64,000 nucleotides of DNA from Paracoccaceae bacterium (lineage in GTDB: Bacteria > Pseudomonadota > Alphaproteobacteria > Rhodobacterales > Rhodobacteraceae), in NCBI GenBank assembly GCA_023260655.1, contig JALQUU010000004.1, forward strand, positions 1 to 64,000, read 5' to 3'. Below, piece by piece: positions 503-42,596 of the stretch. Under the pieces are notes generated by a model that saw only the letters and a list, made by a program, of their open reading frames with translations, searched no databases and was not told where the DNA came from. Within the stretch, counting starts at the first letter, position 1. Each line of letters starts with the position of its first letter. Position numbers and translations under genes: made by a program.

Positions 503-2188
503 ATGGCTCATGACGGACAGGACATGCTGCGCGCAGACGTGGCGATTTTCCCCGACCTTCTGGCGCTGGCCGAGGCTGCAGTGCCCGCCGCAGAAGCGAT
601 TTTCGACGCCGCCAAGGCTCGCGTGAAGGAAACGGTCAGCGAAGGCGGCAAGGTTTCGGCGAAGAAGATGGACGCCAACCAGACCGCGACGCATGGCCTC
701 GCATGGCTCGCCACCTATGTGGAATCGCTGCGCCAGATGCACGCCTGGGCAGGCCGCCTGCAGGAGCAGGGCCGTTTCGGTGAAGTCGAAAAGCTGCTTC
801 TCCAGATCGGCTTTGGGGAATACCTCGCGCAGATCAAGGGCGGCATCCTGATGAACCAGGGCGAGATCGTGCGCCTGCGCGATCTGGGGCTTTCAGCCTC
901 GGAAACCGCTGCGCTCGATATCGCGGCCGTGGAAATGCTGATCGAAGCGGGCAACTCGCAAACCGCGCGCATCCGGCTCGTGCAACTGATGCAAGAGCGC
1001 AATGCCGACATCACCGTGGGCGCAACCGGCCTTGATGAAGAGCTCGAGATGATCCGCGAGCAGTTCCGCCGCTACTCGCTCGACAAGGTGGAGCCCTTCG
1101 CCCACGAATGGCACCTGAAGGACGAGCTGATCCCGATGGAGGTGATCGACGAACTGGCCAAGATGGGCGTGTTCGGCCTGACTATTCCTGAAGAATTCGG
1201 CGGGCTTGGCCTGACGAAGGCCTCGATGGTGGTGGTCTCGGAAGAGCTTTCGCGCGGCTATATCGGCGTGGGCTCCTTGGGCACCCGTTCGGAGATTGCG
1301 GCGGAACTCATCCTCTGCGGCGGCACGCCCGAGCAGAAGGAAAAGTGGCTGCCGAGGCTCGCCTCGGGGGAAATCCTGCCGACCGCCGTGTTCACCGAAC
1401 CGAACACCGGCTCGGACTTGGGCTCGCTCCGCACCCGCGCCAAGAAAGACGGCGATGACTGGGTGGTGAACGGCAACAAGACGTGGATCACCCACGCCGC
1501 CCGCACCCATGTGATGACTGTGCTCGCGCGCACCATCCCGGACACCAACGATTATCGTGGCCTGTCGATGTTCCTCGCCGAGAAAACCCCCGGCACCGAC
1601 GAGACGCCTTTCATCGATCCCGGCCTTTCCGGCGGCGAGATCGAAGTGCTCGGCTATCGCGGCATGAAGGAATACACGGTCAACTTCGACGATTTCAAAG
1701 TGAAGGGCGATAACCTTCTCGGCGGCGTCGAAGGCCAAGGCTTCAAGCAGCTGATGCAGACCTTTGAATCGGCCCGTATCCAGACCGCCGCTCGTGCGAT
1801 CGGTGTGGCGCAGGCCGCGCTCGATACCGGCATGCAATACGCGCAAGACCGCAAGCAGTTCGGCCGTGCGCTGATCGAATTCCCGCGCGTGGCCTCGAAG
1901 CTCGCGATGATGGCGGTAGAAATCATGGTGGCGCGCCAGCTCACCTATTTCTCGGCTTGGGAAAAAGACCATGACCGCCGCTGCGACCTCGAAGCCGGTA
2001 TGGCGAAGCTCCTTGGCGCCCGCGTGGCATGGGCGGCGGCAGATAACGCGCTGCAGATCCATGGCGGCAACGGTTTCGCGCTCGAATACAAGATCAGCCG
2101 CATCCTCTGCGACGCACGCATCCTGAACATCTTCGAAGGTGCCGCCGAAATTCAGGCGCAAGTGATCGCACGTCGCTTGCTCGACTGA
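503..2188 (+). CDS. mcd: (2S)-methylsuccinyl-CoA dehydrogenase
   Basis: Acyl-CoA dehydrogenase-family flavoprotein of 561 residues. Residues from about 178 on form the usual ACAD fold, with FTEPNTGSDLGS near 297, DRKQFGRALIEFP, IHGGNGFALEY and a C-terminal IFEGAAEIQ whose glutamate (about 544) is the expected catalytic base. The roughly 175-residue helical N-terminal extension is the feature that sets methylsuccinyl-CoA dehydrogenase apart from ordinary acyl-CoA dehydrogenases. Mcd oxidises (2S)-methylsuccinyl-CoA to mesaconyl-CoA in the ethylmalonyl-CoA pathway, which assimilates acetyl-CoA in Rhodobacterales without isocitrate lyase. I chose ATG 503 because AAAAGG lies about 9 nt upstream; ATG 494 and a longer frame from 425 are also open. 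It stands alone and is followed by a strong terminator. The nearby taurine genes produce acetyl-CoA, so the pathway fits the setting. A different long-chain ACAD is possible but less likely. Confidence 0.85.
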   Translation: MAHDGQDMLRADVAIFPDLLALAEAAVPAAEAIFDAAKARVKETVSEGGKVSAKKMDANQTATHGLAWLATYVESLRQMHAWAGRLQEQGRFGEVEKLLLQIGFGEYLAQIKGGILMNQGEIVRLRDLGLSASETAALDIAAVEMLIEAGNSQTARIRLVQLMQERNADITVGATGLDEELEMIREQFRRYSLDKVEPFAHEWHLKDELIPMEVIDELAKMGVFGLTIPEEFGGLGLTKASMVVVSEELSRGYIGVGSLGTRSEIAAELILCGGTPEQKEKWLPRLASGEILPTAVFTEPNTGSDLGSLRTRAKKDGDDWVVNGNKTWITHAARTHVMTVLARTIPDTNDYRGLSMFLAEKTPGTDETPFIDPGLSGGEIEVLGYRGMKEYTVNFDDFKVKGDNLLGGVEGQGFKQLMQTFESARIQTAARAIGVAQAALDTGMQYAQDRKQFGRALIEFPRVASKLAMMAVEIMVARQLTYFSAWEKDHDRRCDLEAGMAKLLGARVAWAAADNALQIHGGNGFALEYKISRILCDARILNIFEGAAEIQAQVIARRLLD

Positions 2189-2210
2189 TCTGTCTGCACA
2201 GCAATACCGA

Positions 2211-2238
2211 AGGCCGCGCCCCAATGCGCGGCCTTTTT
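2211..2238 (+). terminator. Rho-independent terminator after mcd
   Basis: A perfect 8-bp stem (GGCCGCGC at 2212-2219 with GCGCGGCC at 2226-2233) has a 6-nt loop and is followed by TTTTT. It lies 23 nt after the mcd stop codon. Confidence 0.85.
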
Positions 2239-2253
2239 CGTTGGAGGGGGCGA

Positions 2254-2315
2254 GGCTGGCCGTGGGGGCGGCCATCCGCTGCCTCGGGGGCGCGTGCCGC
2301 GCCGTTCCCCGAGGC
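2254..2315 (+). repeat. Palindromic intergenic repeat, copy 1
   Basis: A 62-bp element matches, in inverted orientation, the sequence at 4328-4389 with about 5 mismatches. It contains an imperfect palindrome whose outer arms are GCCTCGGGG (2281-2289) and CCCCGAGGC (2307-2315), with inner GCGCG/CGCGC arms. It sits between mcd and the cyclase gene. It resembles a REP-type dispersed element. It has no T-run, so it is not a simple terminator. Confidence 0.75.
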
Positions 2316-2377
2316 TTGCGCATTCCCCATTGCCTCACCGCCCTTGCCCTGCCAGCATCACGCGGGGAGGATCAGCG

Positions 2378-3406
2378 ATGCGTTGGAAAAATAGGCCGGA
2401 AGGCTCGAACTGGGGCGATTTCGGCCCCGAGGATCAACTGGGGCGGCTCAACCTCATCACGCCCGAGAAGGTGCGCCAAGGCATTGCCGAGGTGCGGGAC
2501 GGGCTGAGTTTCTGCCTCTCGCTGCCCTTGGACTATCCCGGTGGCTCCGGCCTCAATCCGCGCCGCCACCCACCCGTGCTGCGTCCGACGCTTCGGGGCA
2601 CGTCGGCCAATTTCAACGTCGCGGTGCCGGATGCGCCCGATGTGATCTGTGATGATCTGGCGCTTCTGCACCTCCAATACTCGACCCAGTGGGACAGTTT
2701 CGCCCATGTCGGCCAGCGCTTCGATGCGGATGGCGACGGTGTGGCCGAACATGTGTTCTACAACGGGTGGCGCGGCGGGGTGGATGTGGTGGGCCCCGAG
2801 AGCATCGAGGGCGCAGGCCCCGGGCCAACTTCTACCTCTTCTGCCAAACGCCTCGGCATCGAGAATTTCGCCGCCCATGGCATTCAGGGGCGGGCGGTGC
2901 TCGTGGACCTTCTGAAGCACTTCGGCCCTTCGCGCCGCCTCATCACCGGCCCCGATCTGGCGCTCGCGATGGCGGCGGACGGGGTGCGCGTGGAAAAGGG
3001 CGATATGCTGTGCCTCCATACAGGATTTGCCCAAGCGCTTCTGGATGCGGAGAAGGCCCCCTCCGACGATCTCTTGCACAATCAATACGCCGTTCTGGAT
3101 GGCCGTTGCCCCTATCTGCAAGCCTTCATCCGCGATAGCGGGATTTCGGCGCTCATTGCGGATAACTACGCCGTGGAGGCCTATCCGGCGCGGCCTTGCG
3201 ACCATGCGGGGCATGATTGCTCGATCCTGCCGCTGCACGAGCTCTGCCTCTTCAAGCTGGGCATTCCTTTGGGCGAGTTGTGGCACCTTACCCCCTTGGC
3301 CGCGCATTTGAGTGCCCAAGGTCGCACGCGCTTCTTCCTGACCGCCCCGCCCCTGCGCTTGCCCGGTGCGGTGGGATCGCCCGTTACCCCGATCGCAACG
3401 GTCTAG
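2378..3406 (+). CDS. Cyclase-family metal-dependent hydrolase
   Basis: 342-residue member of the cyclase/kynurenine-formamidase-like family (Pfam PF04199 type). The diagnostic metal-site region is the stretch STQWDSFAHVGQRFDADGD around residues 101-120, the QWD-xFAH variant of the usual HxGTHxD motif. DNYAVEAYP and DHAGHDCSILPLHELCL near 265-290 form the second conserved block. No signal peptide is visible, so it is probably cytoplasmic. ATG 2378 follows GGGGAGG at a spacing of 7 nt. The gene precedes a BKACE-family gene on the same strand (75-nt gap), and the two lie between inverted copies of a palindromic repeat. They may act together on a small oxo- or amino-acid. The exact substrate cannot be told from sequence. 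Confidence 0.8.
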   Translation: MRWKNRPEGSNWGDFGPEDQLGRLNLITPEKVRQGIAEVRDGLSFCLSLPLDYPGGSGLNPRRHPPVLRPTLRGTSANFNVAVPDAPDVICDDLALLHLQYSTQWDSFAHVGQRFDADGDGVAEHVFYNGWRGGVDVVGPESIEGAGPGPTSTSSAKRLGIENFAAHGIQGRAVLVDLLKHFGPSRRLITGPDLALAMAADGVRVEKGDMLCLHTGFAQALLDAEKAPSDDLLHNQYAVLDGRCPYLQAFIRDSGISALIADNYAVEAYPARPCDHAGHDCSILPLHELCLFKLGIPLGELWHLTPLAAHLSAQGRTRFFLTAPPLRLPGAVGSPVTPIATV

Positions 3407-4518: not shown

Positions 4519-5778
4519 TCAGCGGATAATCACTGCGCGGAAGTCGTTTACATTGGTGCCTGTCGGCCCCGGCGCGAAGATCGCGCCTACGGCATCGAAG
4601 GCCCCCCAGGCATCGTGCTTGGCCAAGGCGGCGCTCGGATCAACCCCTGCGGCGCGCATGGCGCGGGCGGTGTCGCCATCCGCGAAGGCGCCTGCGTTTG
4701 GTTCCGTGCCGTCGATGCCGTCTGTGTCAGCGGCCAGCGCTGCGATGCCGGAAAGCCCGTCCACTGCGCGAGCGAAGCTCAGAAGGAACTCGGTATTCCT
4801 CCCGCCGCGCCCGCCCTCGGCTTTGATCGTCACCGTGGTTTCGCCGCCCGACAGAAGCACAACCGGCGCTTTGAAGGGGCGCGCGCGCGTCACCACTTCG
4901 CGGGCCAGCGCGGCATGGACCAAGCCCACATCCCGCGCCTCGCCCTCGATGGCGTCCGAGAGGATTGCCGCCGAAACGCCTGCCGCTTCCGCCACAGCCC
5001 CAGCCGCCTCCAAGGAACGCGCCGCCGAGGCCACCACTTGCACGACATTTCCGGCAAAACGCGGATCGTTGGGCATCGGCGGCTCAGGCGAGGTTTCGAG
5101 CCATTTGGCCACGGCGGCGGGCAAAACCACGCCATAGGCCGCGGCCAGCGCCAAGGCTTCTGCCTTGCCCACCGCATCCGGCACTGTCGGGCCGGAGGCC
5201 ACTTGCGCGGGATCATCCCCCGGCACATCCGAGACGATCAGGGAAACCACCCGCGCCGGATGCGCAGCCAAGGCCAAGCGCCCGCCCTTGATCCGGCTCA
5301 CCTGCTTGCGGATCGCGTTCATCACGCCAATCGGCGCGCCGGAGGCCAAAAGCGCCTTGTTGAGCGCCACCTCATCCTCGAAGGAAAGCCCGTCGGCAGG
5401 AGCGGGCAACAACGCCGAGCCACCACCGCACACCAGCGCAATCACCAGATCATCTGCCGTGAGGCCCTCAAGCGCCGCAAAAAGCGCCTCCGAGGCGGCG
5501 AGGCCTGCCGCATCCGGCACGGGGTGGGCGGCTTCCATCACGCGGAGGAACTGCGTTTCGCAGGCATAGCCGTAGCGCGTGACCACGACGCCCTCGCACG
5601 GCCCCCAAAGCCGCTCGAACGCTGCCGCCATCTGCGCAGCACCTTTGCCCGCGCCGATCACCACGGTGCGCCCTTTGGGGCGTTCGGGCAAATGCGGGGC
5701 CAAGGCCTTTTCCGGCTCTGCTGCTGCCACAGCCGCCTCGAACATTGCCACCAGAAGATCCCGATCCCGCGCGTCCAT
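4519..5778 (-). CDS. Glycerate 2-kinase (MOFRL family)
   Basis: 419-residue ATP-dependent glycerate kinase of the GckA/TtuD type, which phosphorylates D-glycerate, generally to 2-phosphoglycerate. The N-terminal domain carries VVIGAGKGAAQMA near residue 40 and VCGGGSALLPAP near 115. NAIRKQVSRIKGGRLA and SDVPGDD follow. The MOFRL C-terminal domain begins near VVLLSGGETTVTI (about 305) and ends with GPTGTNVNDFRA. The full family length is present. It follows tauC on the same strand but is separated by a terminator hairpin at 5785-5819, so it is probably expressed on its own or by readthrough. It would feed glyoxylate- or hydroxypyruvate-derived glycerate into central metabolism. Confidence 0.9.
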   Translation of the reverse strand: MDARDRDLLVAMFEAAVAAAEPEKALAPHLPERPKGRTVVIGAGKGAAQMAAAFERLWGPCEGVVVTRYGYACETQFLRVMEAAHPVPDAAGLAASEALFAALEGLTADDLVIALVCGGGSALLPAPADGLSFEDEVALNKALLASGAPIGVMNAIRKQVSRIKGGRLALAAHPARVVSLIVSDVPGDDPAQVASGPTVPDAVGKAEALALAAAYGVVLPAAVAKWLETSPEPPMPNDPRFAGNVVQVVASAARSLEAAGAVAEAAGVSAAILSDAIEGEARDVGLVHAALAREVVTRARPFKAPVVLLSGGETTVTIKAEGGRGGRNTEFLLSFARAVDGLSGIAALAADTDGIDGTEPNAGAFADGDTARAMRAAGVDPSAALAKHDAWGAFDAVGAIFAPGPTGTNVNDFRAVIIR

Positions 5779-29419: not shown

Positions 29420-30751
29420 ATGTCAAAGCAGCCAACCCCATTCCGCACGGCTGCTGCCGACGTCGGTGCTTGGTGTCACGCACTCGACCACCGCCTCTGG
29501 CCCTTGTGCCGCTCGCTCACCGGCCCCGGCACCCGCGAAACCCTCCGCCTTCTGGCCGAAGAGCTCCCCGGCCTCACGATGCAGGCCGTCCCCTCCGACA
29601 GCGCCGCCTTCGACTGGACCGTGCCCGAAGAATGGACCATCTGAGCCGCCTATATCGAAGACGAGGCAGGCAACCGCGTGGTCGATTTCGCGCAGAACAA
29701 TCTCCATCTCGTCGGCTATTCCGAACCCATCGATACGTGACTTTCCTTGGAAGACCTCCAGCCCTTCCTTTATTCGCTCCCCGAACAGCCCGACGCGATC
29801 CCCTACGTCACCTCCTACTATAAGCGCCGCTGGGGCTTCTGCCTCTCGCAGAACCAGCGCGATGCGCTTAAGCCCGGCAAATATCACGTCGTTGTCGATG
29901 CCGATCTCGCGCCCAGTGAATTGAACTATTCCGAACTGGTCATCCCCGGAACGTCCGACAAAGAGATTTTCATCTCCACCTATGTTTGCCACCCCTCCAT
30001 GGCAAATAACGAGCTGTCCGGCCCCGTGGTCACCGCCGCCATCGCCAAATGGCTCGCCTCCCTGCCCGAGCGCCACTACACCTACCGCATCGTCTTCATC
30101 CCCGAGACCATCGGCGCGCTCGTCTATCTCAGCAGCAACCTGCCGCACCTCAAAGCCCATGTGCACGCAGGCTTCAACGTCTCCTGCATCGGCGATGACC
30201 GCGCCTATTCCTACCTTCCCTCCCGCAACGGCGAAACAGTGTCGGACCGCGTGGCAAAACATGTGCTCACCCACATGGCCCCCGATTACAAAACCTACAC
30301 GTGGCTCCAGCGCGGCAGCGACGAGCGCCAGTATTGCGCCCCCGGTGTCGATCTGCCGATGGCCACGATCATGCGTTCGAAATTCGGTGAATACCCCAAA
30401 TACCACACCTCGCTCGACGATCTCGAAAACGTCGTCACCCCCTCCGGTCTCGGTGGCGGTTTCGCCGCCCTCCAGCGCGCGCTCTTGGTGCTCGAAGAGG
30501 ATTTCATCCCCCGCGTCACCACCTTGGGCGAGCCGCAACTCGGCAAGCGCGGCCTTTACCCGAACGTCTCGGTGAAAGGCTCCGCCGATGGCGTGCGCGT
30601 CATGATGAACGTGATCTCCTATTGCGACGGCACCCGCAGCCTTCTCGAAATCGCCGACGTAATCGGCCGCCCCTTCTGGGAACTTTCCGGCCTGATGGGA
30701 CCACTTCTGAAGGAAGGTCTGATCGTCAAGGAAAGCATGAAACTCGCCTGA
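29420..30751 (+). pseudogene. DUF4910-type aminopeptidase-like gene with two in-frame TGA codons
   Basis: One continuous frame of 444 codons encodes an aminopeptidase-like protein (DUF4910/DUF2172 type, often near polysaccharide genes). It is interrupted only by TGA at 29642-29644 (after EEWTI) and TGA at 29738-29740 (after EPIDT). Both flanks are clearly homologous: [50 protein letters not shown] with the metal-site region, [15 protein letters not shown], and a C-terminal winged-helix-like tail. No frameshift is present, and codon use stays as in the neighbours. The simplest view is a recently inactivated gene, perhaps by CGA-to-TGA changes. Restart at TTG 29747 could give a 334-residue truncated product, and stop readthrough is a remote option. 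Confidence 0.75.
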
Positions 30752-33939: not shown

Positions 33940-34776
33940 ATGAAACCGATCACCGACATTCTCGCCAACGGCACCCGCCGCCACTTCCAGCCGCCCCGCA
34001 CCCGCGCCGAGAACGATCCCGAGAGCGGCATGCAGGCGCGATTGGCCAAGCTCGTGGGCTTCGTGGCCTTCGCCCTGCCGATCGTGCTGATGTTGGGCGC
34101 GGCCAACGGAAGCTGCATGCGCGACAGTATCAGCCACTTCTATTACGCCCAGTTTCTCGGGCCGATCTTCGTGGGCATGCTCTCGTTTATCGGTGGGTTC
34201 CTCATCGCCTATCGCGGCGAGCATTGGTTGGAAAACCGGGGCGCAACCCTCGCGGGCCTCGGGGCCTTTGGCGTTGCGGTGCTGCCCACAACGGGGAACG
34301 GCTGCGAGATGGCCACTGGCCGATTGTTCCGGACCTTCGCAACGCTCGATGAAAACGGCCTGCCCATTATCGTCGAAGGCCGCAACGCGTTCGAACTATT
34401 CTCCCGCGTTCACCATCTGCATACGATCGCGGCTGCTCTGGTCTTCGGGCTTCTGGCGCTCTTCATCCTCGTGGTCCTGCGCCGCGTGGTGCCGGAACGC
34501 CATGAGCATAACGGCGAGATCATCCCGACGAAACGCAAGCGCAACGTGCTTTACAGCCTCTGCGGCGGGGCAATCCTGCTGTGCATTGCACTCCTCGGGG
34601 CCAAGCAAATGGCCTCCGAGGCGTTCCTCGTAAAATGGAACACCCTCAATCTGACCTTCGTTTTCGAGGCAATCGCGCTTTGGGCATTCGGGATCGCATG
34701 GCTCGCGAAAGGCCGCCAGTTCGAAGAGTTGAACGACCCGTCCGAGAGGGATCAGTGGCGGCGGAACGTGAGGTAG
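33940..34776 (+). CDS. Conserved membrane protein of unknown function
   Basis: 278-residue protein with about six hydrophobic helices (near 37-57, 70-92, 98-118, 158-182, 205-225 and 238-258). Notable parts are NGSCMRDSISHFYYAQFLGPIFVG and TTGNGCEMATGRLF, which hold two cysteines facing the same side, and FSRVHHLHTIAAALVFG with a histidine cluster. I do not recognise the family. The histidines within or next to membrane helices could bind haem or metal, but that is a guess. GGGGAGG precedes ATG 33940. Its 3' end overlaps the convergent trmB by 25 nt. Confidence 0.7.
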   Translation: MKPITDILANGTRRHFQPPRTRAENDPESGMQARLAKLVGFVAFALPIVLMLGAANGSCMRDSISHFYYAQFLGPIFVGMLSFIGGFLIAYRGEHWLENRGATLAGLGAFGVAVLPTTGNGCEMATGRLFRTFATLDENGLPIIVEGRNAFELFSRVHHLHTIAAALVFGLLALFILVVLRRVVPERHEHNGEIIPTKRKRNVLYSLCGGAILLCIALLGAKQMASEAFLVKWNTLNLTFVFEAIALWAFGIAWLAKGRQFEELNDPSERDQWRRNVR

Positions 34777-35471
34777 TGCGGTGTGCGCCCCTCGCGCAAT
34801 GCCTTCTGCTCGTAGCGGGTCGAGATCCAGTCCGACCACGGCTTCCGCCAGTCTTCCGGCCCTTCGGCCAGCCACTCGAACCCGGCCCGCGGCACCTCTT
34901 CCAAGGTCTGGCGCACGTAGTCGGGAATATCCGTGGCCACGCGGAAAATCGCCCCCGGCTTCATCACGCGGTGCAAGGGCTGAAGATGCTCCGGCGTCAC
35001 GAAACGGCGGCGATGGTGGCGCGCCTTGGGCCAAGGATCGGGATAGAGCAGGAACGCCTTGTCGATGCATTGATCGGGCAGCACTTCGCATAGCTCGCGC
35101 ACATCCCAAGCATGGATCCGGATACGCTCTTCAAGCCCCGCATCCTCGATCTTGGCCAGCGCCATCGCCACACCATTCAGGAAGGGTTCACAGCCGATAA
35201 TGCCCACCTCGGGGTAAGTCTCGGCCATATGCGCCATATGCTCGCCACCACCAAACCCGACCTCGAGCCATGTCTCGCGGCCCGGAAAAATCGCGCCAAC
35301 ATCCAGCGGCGTCCGCTCCGGGTTCTCCTCCAGTGTCACTGTACCGGGCGAGAGCTTTGGCAACAGCTCTTCCACGAGCCGCTTCTGGCGGTCGCGCAGG
35401 GTCTTGCCGTGGATACGGCCATAGAAGTTGCGCCAAGGCGCGCCGGAGGGGTGATGATCTTTATCGCTCAT
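34752..35471 (-). CDS. trmB: tRNA (guanine-N7-)-methyltransferase
   Basis: 239-residue SAM-dependent methyltransferase making m7G46 in tRNA. The SAM site is WLEVGFGGGEHMAHMAE near 75-90; the family signature is CIDKAFLLYPDPWPKARHHRRRFV (about 145-165), and the C-terminal TRYEQKALREG is also typical. ATG 35471 gives the usual N-terminus with RNFYGRIHGKTLRDRQ. It overlaps the end of the preceding membrane-protein gene. It lies two genes downstream of metK, which supplies SAM. Confidence 0.92.
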   Translation of the reverse strand: MSDKDHHPSGAPWRNFYGRIHGKTLRDRQKRLVEELLPKLSPGTVTLEENPERTPLDVGAIFPGRETWLEVGFGGGEHMAHMAETYPEVGIIGCEPFLNGVAMALAKIEDAGLEERIRIHAWDVRELCEVLPDQCIDKAFLLYPDPWPKARHHRRRFVTPEHLQPLHRVMKPGAIFRVATDIPDYVRQTLEEVPRAGFEWLAEGPEDWRKPWSDWISTRYEQKALREGRTPHYLTFRRH

Positions 35472-38832: not shown

Positions 38833-39721
38833 CCCGTGCTCCGTTCAACCGAACCCGCAACCGCTTGATCCGGCGGGGATCGGCATCCACCACCTCGAAC
38901 TCGGGGCCGGATGGGTGTTTAACCACCTCGCCGCGCGCGGGCACTCGGCCCGCCAGCATGAAGACGAGACCCCCGAGAGTGTCGATCTCTTCTTCATCGA
39001 CATCCTCATGCTCCGTAAGCGAATGCCCGATCTCGGCTTCGAATTCTTCCAGCGGGGTTTTGGCCAAGGCGAGCCACTGACCGGGCTTTTCTTCGCTCCA
39101 GTAGCTGTCGTCCTCGGTGTCGTGCTCGTCCTCGATTTCACCGATGACCTGTTCGATCAGGTCCTCGATGGTCACAAGCCCGTCGACACCGCCATATTCA
39201 TCAATCACCAGCGCCATATGCCGACGCTCGCTTTGCATCTTCTGCAAGAGCACGCCGATAGACATGGACGGCGGAACGAAAAGCAGCGGCCTCAACATGG
39301 ATTTCAGCGTGAACCGGGCACCATTCGAGGAATTGAACCCATGCTTCAAGGCAAAATCCTTGAGGTGCACCAAGCCTTGCGGGCTATCCAACGTGCCTTT
39401 GTAAACGGGGACACGGGTCAGGCCGCTTTCGCGAAATACCTCGACCAACTCCTCTTTGGAGATGCCCATCGGCACGGCGATAATATCTGCCTTTGGAATG
39501 GCGACATCTTCAACGCGCATACGCCGCAAGTTGCCTATGCCGAGCGACGCACTGGGCGTGCCAAGGCGCGGTTGCGGAGCCGGTGCTGCCTCGCCTGTAT
39601 CAGACGGGCTCAAAGCCCCGATAATTCGGCGAAAAAACCCACCCTGCCTCGAACTCTCCGAAGTGTCTTCCGGTTGCGCGCTTTGCGCTGCCTCAGAAGA
39701 ACCGTCTATGCTGTCGCCCAT
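38822..39721 (-). CDS. corC: CBS-domain CorC/HlyC-type protein
   Basis: 299-residue cytoplasmic protein. Two CBS domains span about 70-205 (MRVEDVAIPKADIIAV, then LVHLKDFAL and MALVIDEYGGVDGLVTIEDLIEQVIGEIEDEHD). The C-terminal CorC_HlyC domain includes IDTLGGLVFMLAGRVPARGEV. It has no membrane domain. The ybeZ-ybeY-corC-lnt order is the same as in E. coli. The N-terminal 60 residues are low complexity. Role in ion homeostasis or envelope stress is inferred from the family. Confidence 0.9.
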   Translation of the reverse strand: MGDSIDGSSEAAQSAQPEDTSESSRQGGFFRRIIGALSPSDTGEAAPAPQPRLGTPSASLGIGNLRRMRVEDVAIPKADIIAVPMGISKEELVEVFRESGLTRVPVYKGTLDSPQGLVHLKDFALKHGFNSSNGARFTLKSMLRPLLFVPPSMSIGVLLQKMQSERRHMALVIDEYGGVDGLVTIEDLIEQVIGEIEDEHDTEDDSYWSEEKPGQWLALAKTPLEEFEAEIGHSLTEHEDVDEEEIDTLGGLVFMLAGRVPARGEVVKHPSGPEFEVVDADPRRIKRLRVRLNGARDAA

Positions 39722-39745
39722 GATCCCTTTCCGTGTTGGCGGGAG

Positions 39746-40264
39746 CTATTTCCCGTCATCCTCATTATATGGGTCTGCAATTCCCATTTTGCCAAGTATC
39801 TCGGTTTCAATACTTTCCATCAAGTGAGCGTCTTTCTCTCTCACGTGATCAAATCCAAGCAAATGCATGGTTCCATGCACCAAGAGGTGCAGAACATGTG
39901 CGTCGAAGCTTTTGTTCTGGGCCTCGGCTTCGCGCTGGCATGTCTCGTAGGCAATCGCGATATCGCCAAGCTCGAGGCCGAAGGGGTCTTCGGGATCGAA
40001 TTCTGGCAGGAACGGCTCTTCGCCATCTTCCTCCGCGCCCCGTTCTTCGGATGGCCACGAGAGCACATTGGTCGGCGTCGGCTTGCCGCGAAATTCGGTG
40101 TTCAGTTCGGCAATGCGGGCGTCGTCACAGCCCATGACGGCTGCTTCGATCTCGTCGCTATCCAAATCGAAATGCGCCATCACAGCGTGAAAAGCCTTGT
40201 CGGCCAACTCTGCCAGATGCGCCTCGTCCCAAGCGCCACATTCGATGATCGTATCTACTGCCAT
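39746..40264 (-). CDS. ybeY: rRNA maturation endoribonuclease YbeY
   Basis: 172-residue zinc-dependent RNase involved in 16S rRNA 3'-end maturation and ribosome quality control. The zinc motif H-x3-H-x5-H is visible as HLLVHGTMHLLGFDH (about 126-140). LNTEFRGKPTPTNVLSWPSEE is the other conserved block. A short acidic insertion (ERGAEEDGEEPFLPEFDPEDP) is typical of alphaproteobacterial members. It sits between phoH and corC. Confidence 0.92.
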   Translation of the reverse strand: MAVDTIIECGAWDEAHLAELADKAFHAVMAHFDLDSDEIEAAVMGCDDARIAELNTEFRGKPTPTNVLSWPSEERGAEEDGEEPFLPEFDPEDPFGLELGDIAIAYETCQREAEAQNKSFDAHVLHLLVHGTMHLLGFDHVREKDAHLMESIETEILGKMGIADPYNEDDGK

Positions 40265-40340
40265 TCCAGCCTCTTACGCGGCACGCATGGAAAGCGAAAG
40301 CGAAACCTGTGCGCCAACTTCTTTGCAGCAATAGAGCAAA

Positions 40341-41363
40341 TCAACCGATTGACGGCGTGTCTGCCTCGTAGGCTTCGATGATCGCAGCGACCAGAGGATG
40401 GCGAACCACGTCTTTCGAGGTGAAGTAATTGAAGCTGAGCGCAGGGATCGACTTCAGCAACCGTTCGGCATCCCCAAGCCCCGAAGAAACTCCACGCGGA
40501 AGGTCGATCTGGGTACGGTCTCCCGTGATCACCATCCGCGATCCTTCGCCGAGGCGCGTGAGGAACATCTTCATCTGCATCGAAGTGGCGTTCTGGGCTT
40601 CATCGAGGACGATGAAAGCATTCGAGAGCGTCCGGCCACGCATAAAGGCCAGCGGCGCGATCTCGATGCGCTTTTCCTCGATCAGCTTGGCCACTTGCTT
40701 GCCCGGCAGGCAATCGCTGAGCGCGTCGTATAGCGGCTGCATGTAGGGATCGACTTTTTCCTTCATGTCGCCGGGCAGATAACCGAGCTTCTCGCCCGCC
40801 TCGACCGCCGGACGCGACAAGATGATCTTGTCCACTTGCCCCGTGATGAACATGCTGACGCCGACAGCGACAGCGAGATAGGTTTTCCCCGTGCCCGCCG
40901 GCCCGATGCCGAAGCAAAGCTCGTGCTTGAAAAGGTTTTGTACATAGGCCTTCTGCGCTTCTGTGCGCGGCTCGATCAGCTTTCGGCGGGTCTTGATCTC
41001 GACAGGTCCGCCACGGAACATCTCGAGCTGATCGCCCGGCTGGATGCCTGTGCCTTTTTCCGAGGCCCCCATACGGAGTTCCCGATCTATGTCGCCAGTC
41101 TCCAGATCTTTGCCCGCTTCCAAACGCTCGTAGAGTGATTCCAGCACCAGCTTGGCCTCGGCGATGGCTGGCTCTTCGCCCATGACCGCCAATTGATTGC
41201 CACGCCTCAGGATCTGAACCGACAGTTTTTGCTCTATTGCAGCAAGATTTCGATCGTACTGGCCGCAAAGATCTATCAGCAGTCTGTTGTCCGGAAACTC
41301 AAGGCGCACTTCTTTGAGGGGTATGGCCTCGGCGAGCGGGGGCGGAAGGACTGTGGCAGACAA
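40341..41363 (-). CDS. phoH: PhoH-like ATPase (YbeZ)
   Basis: 340-residue P-loop protein. A KH-like N-terminal part (KLSVQILRRGNQLAVMGEEPAIAEAKLVLE) precedes the PhoH domain with Walker A GPAGTGKTYLAVAVG (about 154-168), AVEAGEKLGYLPGD, FIVLDEAQNATSMQMKMFLTRLGEGSRMVITGD and LPRG. It is the usual partner of YbeY in RNA metabolism and starts the run phoH-ybeY-corC-lnt. miaB, often just before it, is separated here by the OmpA/lipoprotein pair. Confidence 0.92.
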   Translation of the reverse strand: MSATVLPPPLAEAIPLKEVRLEFPDNRLLIDLCGQYDRNLAAIEQKLSVQILRRGNQLAVMGEEPAIAEAKLVLESLYERLEAGKDLETGDIDRELRMGASEKGTGIQPGDQLEMFRGGPVEIKTRRKLIEPRTEAQKAYVQNLFKHELCFGIGPAGTGKTYLAVAVGVSMFITGQVDKIILSRPAVEAGEKLGYLPGDMKEKVDPYMQPLYDALSDCLPGKQVAKLIEEKRIEIAPLAFMRGRTLSNAFIVLDEAQNATSMQMKMFLTRLGEGSRMVITGDRTQIDLPRGVSSGLGDAERLLKSIPALSFNYFTSKDVVRHPLVAAIIEAYEADTPSIG

Positions 41364-41458
41364 TCAGATCTCCTTCTACAAGCTTATGTATCCATGGTGC
41401 CAACGAGCACTAACTCTGGCAAGACCTCATCGCACTTCCCTCCCAAAGAATAGAAAAC

Positions 41459-41490
41459 GGGCTGCGGAGTTTTTGTCCGCAGCCCATTTT
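41459..41490. terminator. Terminator between phoH and the lipoprotein gene
   Basis: GGGCTGCGGA (41459-41468) pairs perfectly with TCCGCAGCCC (41476-41485). On the plus strand an ATTTTTT follows. On the minus strand, the direction of the upstream lipoprotein gene, GTTTTC follows. It insulates phoH from the OmpA/lipoprotein genes. Confidence 0.85.
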
Positions 41491-41506: not shown

Positions 41507-41821
41507 TTACAGCGGGTCGTTGATCGTTTGCGTGCCTTTGTAGGGGCCAATCGCCGTGTTCGGCGGAGCTGCATCGGAGCAAACCGGCTTGCCCTAGGGA
41601 TCAAGGCGCATGGAGAGGTAGCCTTCCACACCGTCATCGATGATCCAGTGATCACAGCCGTTGGGATCAACCCAGATGCCTGCGGTCATGGTCGAGAGGT
41701 GGTGCGAGCGGAAGCCGTAGTCTTGCGTCTTGTCGGTGTGCACACGACCGCCACCGCCCTCGCCTCAAGCCGATACCAGTGCCACTGCGCCGAGAAGAGA
41801 GATCAATTTCACAGTTTTCAT
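41507..41821 (-). pseudogene. Small lipoprotein gene with stops at lipobox Cys and mid-frame
   Basis: From ATG 41821 the frame reads MKTVKLISLLGAVALVSA, then TGA (41767-41765) exactly where the lipobox cysteine should be. GEGGGGRVHTDKTQDYGF and so on follow, with a TAG at 41596-41594 in LDP*GKPVC and a final TAA at 41507. Between the stops, GIWVDPNGCDHWIIDDGVEGYLSMRLDP aligns closely with WVDPDGCEHWVMDDGFEGYMSNHVN of the OmpA protein just upstream, where the TAG position is Q (CAG). GAGGGGAAG precedes the ATG. It therefore looks like a once-working lipoprotein of 104 codons, paired with and related to the OmpA gene, and now disabled by two point changes. Confidence 0.75.
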
Positions 41822-41832
41822 TTTTCTTCCCC

Positions 41833-42435
41833 TCAGCGGATGCAAATGATCTTGACGCGGCGGTTCTGCGCCATGCCGGACGCCGAATTATTCGGCTTTT
41901 TGGGCATACGCTCACCGTATCCACGCACGTCGATCACCTTTGCGCCGACACTTGCCGCCACAGCGGCCACAGCGTTGGCTCGATTGTAGCTCAGGCGCAT
42001 GTTATATTCATCGGAGGCGCGTGCATCGGTGTGGCCGGCAATGATGTAGGCACGCGAATTCGCGGACGAGAAGAAGTTCGCGAGGTTCTGGCGGCCACCT
42101 GCGGACAGCTTGTAGCTGTTGGTCGCGAAGTATTGGTCGGTGTTCATCACACCACAGACATTCGCACGGTGGCAGACCGGGATGCCCTGGCGGTTGACGT
42201 GATTCGACATATAGCCTTCGAAGCCATCGTCCATCACCCAGTGTTCGCATCCATCCGGGTCGACCCAGACAGTCGGAGCGTAACGCTCACCGGTGGCTTT
42301 ACCATCATTATCCAAAAGACGCCCGAACAGCCCATCCTGGGCTAGCGCGGTGCTAGACGTGAAGATGCCCATAACAAGCGAGACAGCGGCAGCAGCCGTC
42401 ATGAACTTGCGGGCGAAGTTAGCGTGATGTCCCAC
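41833..42435 (-). CDS. OmpA-family protein
   Basis: 200-residue envelope protein. A signal peptide spans about 1-33 (hydrophobic AAAAVSLVMGIFTSSTALAQ). Residues 50-85 form a module, WVDPDGCEHWVMDDGFEGY, shared with the neighbouring lipoprotein gene. The C-terminal 100 residues are an OmpA/MotB peptidoglycan-binding domain: AYIIAGHTDARASDEYNMRLSYNRANAVAAVAASVGAKVIDVRGYGERMP and the final NRRVKIICIR. It probably anchors the outer envelope to peptidoglycan. The lipoprotein gene starts 11 nt after its stop, so they were one operon. Confidence 0.88.
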   Translation of the reverse strand: MGHHANFARKFMTAAAAVSLVMGIFTSSTALAQDGLFGRLLDNDGKATGERYAPTVWVDPDGCEHWVMDDGFEGYMSNHVNRQGIPVCHRANVCGVMNTDQYFATNSYKLSAGGRQNLANFFSSANSRAYIIAGHTDARASDEYNMRLSYNRANAVAAVAASVGAKVIDVRGYGERMPKKPNNSASGMAQNRRVKIICIR

Positions 42436-42596
42436 AGCTACGACCCTATTGTTATTTCCCCCTGAGCAAGAAATATACCCTAAAGCATATATTTCCCAAC
42501 ACGAATTTGAGTTTGAAGGAAATTTTGGCCTGTGTGAAGTGCTATTTGGGTAGGATCGGCCCGCTCAGACTAACTTTGTCCGCCCTCGCGGCAAGT

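Follow-up and report, generated by a model that had tools for sequence, protein, structure and literature searches.

The OmpA-like/lipoprotein locus

The window, that is, the whole 64,000-nucleotide stretch analysed here, lies on contig C210 in the draft genome (G000) of a Rhodobacteraceae-type bacterium; the draft amounts to 2.67 Mb in 265 contigs and is 77.5% complete. On its reverse strand, an open gene of the OmpA family (PF00691; 41833..42435) ends 11 bases upstream of the ATG of a lipoprotein frame (41507..41821), which comprises 105 codons with the final TAA and contains two internal stops. A weak promoter-like site lies upstream of the OmpA-family gene on the same strand (42472..42499), one being found against 0.8 expected by chance. 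Just 3' of the lipoprotein gene, again on the reverse strand, there is a terminator-like hairpin of 15 pairs (41454..41490), which is a consensus match only, three having been found in the region against 1.2 expected.

Read from 41821 to 41507, the lipoprotein frame gives the leader MKTVKLISLLGAVALVSA, a first stop and then the conserved mature part, which starts with GEGGGG, is interrupted by a second stop after SMRLDP and continues with GKPVCSDAAPPNTAIGPYKGTQTINDPL to the natural TAA. The first stop is a TGA at codon 19 (41765..41767), the position of the lipobox cysteine, and the second is a TAG at codon 76 (41594..41596). The coordinates and both stops of the initial annotation are correct, as are strand and frame; on the coding strand the TGA reads 41767-41765 and the TAG 41596-41594. 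No second copy of the lipoprotein gene was found in the G000 assembly, where the matches consisted of the copy in the window and the OmpA paralogue.

In this family the two tandem proteins have the motif WVDPxGCxHWxxDDGxEGYxxxxxxxxGxPVC in common (41507-42435, alignment A1), and none of the Pfam or NCBIfam models that cover it scores above its cut-off. In the OmpA-family protein the copy reads WVDPDGCEHW...PVC and occupies the N-terminal part. The upstream gene is a member of the OmpA family carrying this motif, whereas the lipoprotein is without an OmpA domain. The tandem arrangement of an OmpA-like gene and the lipoprotein gene was present in 28 of 29 family loci (L009-L037); at the remaining one (L029) the lipoprotein alone was seen. 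The OmpA domain of one protein and the lipobox of the other point to a possible role of the pair in the cell envelope.

Searches for a family, domain or fold of the lipoprotein itself gave no acceptable candidate. Pfam and NCBIfam contained no family over cut-off, the sub-threshold matches being DUF6440 (E 0.056) and Omp10 (E 0.012), and a 41-row profile found no sequence match in the PDB. The structure model of an intact orthologue (L062) had a mean pLDDT of 70.8, and Foldseek returned no match to it at E <=0.001.

Orthologues and the residues expected at the stops

The read-through lipoprotein has an open copy in a genome of the same genus (G001; 82% identity), where the contig runs out shortly ahead of the gene's 3' end. 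Another open copy is present in the relative G003 (65% identity). Across the family, orthologues are widespread: 183 of 295 genomes, the window's own counted in, match the lipoprotein gene or its paralogue. The frame at 41507-41821 is no mere product of chance, as its read-through translation matches open copies in relatives. The initial annotation had read this frame as a real lipoprotein gene that has been lost, and this is well supported, with open orthologues in G001, in G003 and across the family. These orthologues resemble other lipoproteins with a type II signal peptide in having an N-terminal Lys, a run of hydrophobic residues and a Cys that follows Ala or Gly. The window gene differs in that its Cys codon is TGA, so that as it stands it encodes no lipoprotein.

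That Cys was to be expected at the TGA, as previously proposed, was borne out by the codons of other loci. Among 118 lipoprotein loci including that of the window, the lipobox codon was TGC in 55, TGT in 55, TGA in one (the window itself), unaligned in two and something else in five. Seven of the 117 other loci were thus misregistered or unaligned, leaving TGC or TGT in 110. Three of the five other cases (L067, L112 and L135) have the Cys in a different register, whereas the alignments of the remaining two (L028 and L083) start past the signal peptide and are uninformative on this residue. Of the two unaligned loci, L041 has a leader that ends in LSGC. In an alignment of 41 hand-picked rows, which did not include the odd-leader loci L028, L083 and L135, all 41 have the Cys. 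Some genomes are present twice among the 117 loci, and a similar set amounts to 102 distinct aligned sequences.

At codon 76, the 117 other loci have Tyr in 80, Asp in 27, Asn in four and Phe in three, with single occurrences of Met, Thr and Glu and none of Gln. Since Tyr dominates and Gln is absent, the TAG most likely replaces a Tyr codon. The alignment of this TAG with Gln, proposed initially, applies to the OmpA-like paralogue next door ('NRQGIPVC') and does not extend to the lipoprotein orthologues.

Another relative, G002, is closer, with 90-93% DNA identity over aligned stretches. Its contigs break at the locus, so that its lipoprotein gene is not visible, and the OmpA paralogue is its sole match to the read-through lipoprotein. 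The contig bearing its OmpA-like gene (L043) departs from the alignment before the end of the gene and continues for 176 bases (5016-5191); when these and the 26 preceding bases were used as a query, only the self-match was found in four genus genomes. The departure reflects either a contig artefact or a rearrangement. The search made of IMG/VR gave no relative.

Divergence and age of the loss

Compared with G001, the core of the lipoprotein has a dN of 0.031 and a dS of 1.32, and the whole mature part a dN of 0.098 and a dS of 1.08; the leader is too variable for such an estimate. By these estimates, divergence of the core from G001 is strongly constrained, and the loss should therefore be young. 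Apart from the stops, the mature part contains no residue that is unseen in the 102 distinct orthologue sequences. Five of its residues are rare, and each of these also occurs in one to six other orthologues. With no unseen residue in the mature part, long neutral decay is unlikely and the loss looks recent.

The possible single substitutions in the lipoprotein gene would create a stop in 2.3-2.7% of cases and a missense change in about 70%. By our estimate, the chance that a second stop follows a first inactivating one before any missense change is about 4%. A pattern of stops only is therefore unusual without being decisive, and the case was selected for looking unusual.

Stop codons as working stops

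Conserved genes in this genome end at the three usual stop codons. Orthologues were paired between about 1 Mb of G000 and about 0.8 Mb of G003. In 112 of the 147 pairs both genes stop at the same place, and there the G000 stop is TGA in 73, TAA in 31 and TAG in 8. RF2 is intact in G000 and scored over cut-off in a search in which RF1 had no model of its own. No anticodon that would read a stop codon was found in the approximately 1 Mb of G000 scanned, which holds 14 tRNA genes, one of them probably counted twice as two loci overlap.

Selenocysteine at the lipobox was considered and rejected. None of the five genomes searched (G000 and four relatives) gave SelB or tRNA-Sec over cut-off, with a gap possible in G000 at its completeness of 77.5%, and four of the tRNA-Sec look-alikes were classed by ARAGORN as tRNA-Ser (three) and tRNA-Leu (one). 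The RNA 3' of the TGA folds no better than shuffled sequence: no structured element was detected in the 68 nt starting at the TGA (z -0.41), whose fold 59 of 200 shuffles equalled or bettered.

Other broken genes in the genome

Three further genes of G000 are interrupted by in-frame stops. On the forward strand of the window, a DUF4910/DUF2172/HTH_47 gene (29420-30751) has two in-frame TGA codons (29642 and 29738) and no frameshift. In three homologues from plasmids the first TGA corresponds to Arg, and the second to Trp, Gln or Glu; no match to the gene was present in the three genus mates searched. On the reverse strand of another contig (C167; L166 and L167, near 30816 and at 34168-34926) there are a membrane-protein-like gene of DUF2189 type with one TAA and an HTH-like gene with two TAG codons. 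In the HTH-like gene the first TAG corresponds to Tyr in G003 and the other to Ala or a Pro-like residue, and the single TAA of the DUF2189-like gene corresponds to Cys in G003. The names HTH and DUF2189 are presumptive labels for the C167 genes, judged from their sequence. The stops in these broken genes of G000 fall on unrelated residues and point to no consistent reassignment. Exactly two stops occur in three of the four broken genes examined, and no frameshift lies within any of the four.

When 707 proteins, nearly all from G003 and a few from G001 and G002, were compared with a sample of G000, 161 had a homologue there (52,066 aligned residues), and four in-frame stops in three genes together with three putative frame switches were recorded. 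The filter used overlooked the TGA of the lipoprotein itself because leaders are too variable. In the reverse comparison, 147 of 891 proteins had a homologue, with five stops and zero frame switches; the five stops were dropped, all of them lying in one forward-strand frame (38915-40378) opposite reverse-strand frames that were taken as the real genes. In this protein comparison G000 is the genome with more apparently broken genes than its relative. An earlier unfiltered comparison, with 48 and 47 homologues, had yielded 11 and 10 stops and zero frame switches, most of the stops lying in frames judged by eye to be antisense or non-coding.

In a coding-potential scan of 995,961 bases of G000, 14 rows remained that no other frame outcompeted. 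They comprise the two stops of the DUF4910 gene, the DUF2189-type stop and 11 rows that were judged by eye, from the printed peptides, to be gene boundaries or antisense frames. In G003, scanned as a control, 400,000 bases yielded 10 rows, which by eye are likewise mostly boundaries. Taken alone, the scan gives a raw rate in G000 that is not above that of G003; it is insensitive to short genes and left the lipoprotein's own stops unflagged.

Nonsense pseudogene or assembly error

Recent bacterial nonsense pseudogenes carry premature in-frame stops in a sequence that is otherwise conserved and whose counterparts in relatives are open. The lipoprotein gene of the window agrees with them in all these respects, but differs in that its two stops are accompanied by neither an indel nor an unseen mature residue, and in that one stop falls on the lipidation cysteine. 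Among the papers listed from a literature search, no such case was named in the abstract beginnings, which is no proof of absence.

The gene is probably a young nonsense pseudogene, recently inactivated by ordinary loss and not by way of a new genetic code. This reading is based on the stops being in frame, on the orthologues being open and having Cys, on TGA and TAG working as terminators, on the lack of any unseen mature residue and on the lack of a second copy. The OmpA-family gene and the small lipoprotein with the same motif would form a two-gene unit, presumably co-transcribed, of which the second gene would have been inactivated recently by nonsense mutations. Translation would end after 18 leader residues, ahead of the lipidation cysteine. 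The lipoprotein would then be absent from the cell, while the OmpA-like gene stays open. That the loss is young is suggested by sequence divergence. Two observations sit less easily with a pseudogene: it has two stops yet no unseen mature residue, and three of the four broken genes have exactly two stops with no frameshift. Moreover, the excess of stops and frame switches in G000 over the reverse comparison may reflect a poorer consensus.

The main rival is an error of the draft consensus, so that one or both stops would not exist in the organism. The fragmented and incomplete state of the assembly favours it, as do the stops in three genes and the three putative frame switches found in G000 among 161 compared proteins, the reverse comparison giving no credible stop. 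However, random errors would mostly be missense (about 70% against 2.5% nonsense), and the mature part has no change that is unseen in orthologues. By our estimate, for two of two amino-acid-changing errors to be both nonsense would have a chance of about 0.1%. An error of this kind is considered improbable, and the stops are probably present in the organism as well as in the assembly.

Possible selected loss and a probable parallel decay

Selected loss is a version of the pseudogene reading, with which its odds overlap. Dropping the lipoprotein would have been advantageous and nonsense alleles would have been favoured. The two stops without any missense change unseen in orthologues are in line with this, and so is another member of the family, G179, where the same gene pair (L038, about 1469-2420, reverse strand) has stops in both genes: the OmpA-like gene is interrupted by two TAA, and the lipoprotein gene by a TGA at its conserved Trp. 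Parallel decay of the pair in G179 is probable from its sequence. Reading TGA as Trp there was rejected, because the lipoprotein has TGA whereas the upstream gene has TAA at the corresponding position and another TAA later in its frame; this is a case of mixed decay. Stops flagged in G018, G261 and G273 proved from the translations to be natural gene ends. On the other hand, decayed cases number two among the lipoprotein matches listed from 295 genomes, and neutral loss also fits. Selection for the loss is considered unlikely, and one loss here plus the probable parallel decay in G179 is too little to establish it.

Recoding or leaky termination, both unlikely

The initial annotation had also raised a phase of recoding. 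In that case UGA would code for Cys and UAG for Tyr, and the protein would still be made; the conserved mature protein, the short spacing after the OmpA-family gene and the terminator-like hairpin still in place would suit such a state. Against it, TGA and TAG are the normal ends of conserved genes, RF2 is intact, and neither selenocysteine machinery over cut-off nor a stop-reading tRNA was found within the limits of the searches. Elsewhere TGA takes the place of Arg or of a variable residue, one TAG that of Tyr and the other that of an Ala or Pro-like residue, and TAA that of Cys; no single reassignment therefore fits these mixed replacements. Genome-wide reassignment finds no support, with RF2 kept and the replaced residues varying among the broken genes, and recoding is highly unlikely. 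Equally slight is the likelihood of leaky termination, in which near-cognate tRNAs would insert Cys at UGA and Tyr at UAG and some lipidated protein would be made; it was considered because the mature protein looks constrained despite the stops and two other genes of this genome have two stops each with no frameshift.

Implications for the gene pair

Readthrough of the stops would make lipidation dependent on a recoded cysteine. That would be a remarkable situation, but the evidence here points against it. As a recent gene loss the case is ordinary. It may serve as a mildly useful and easily checked example of a widely conserved OmpA-like/lipoprotein pair that is losing one partner by stops alone.
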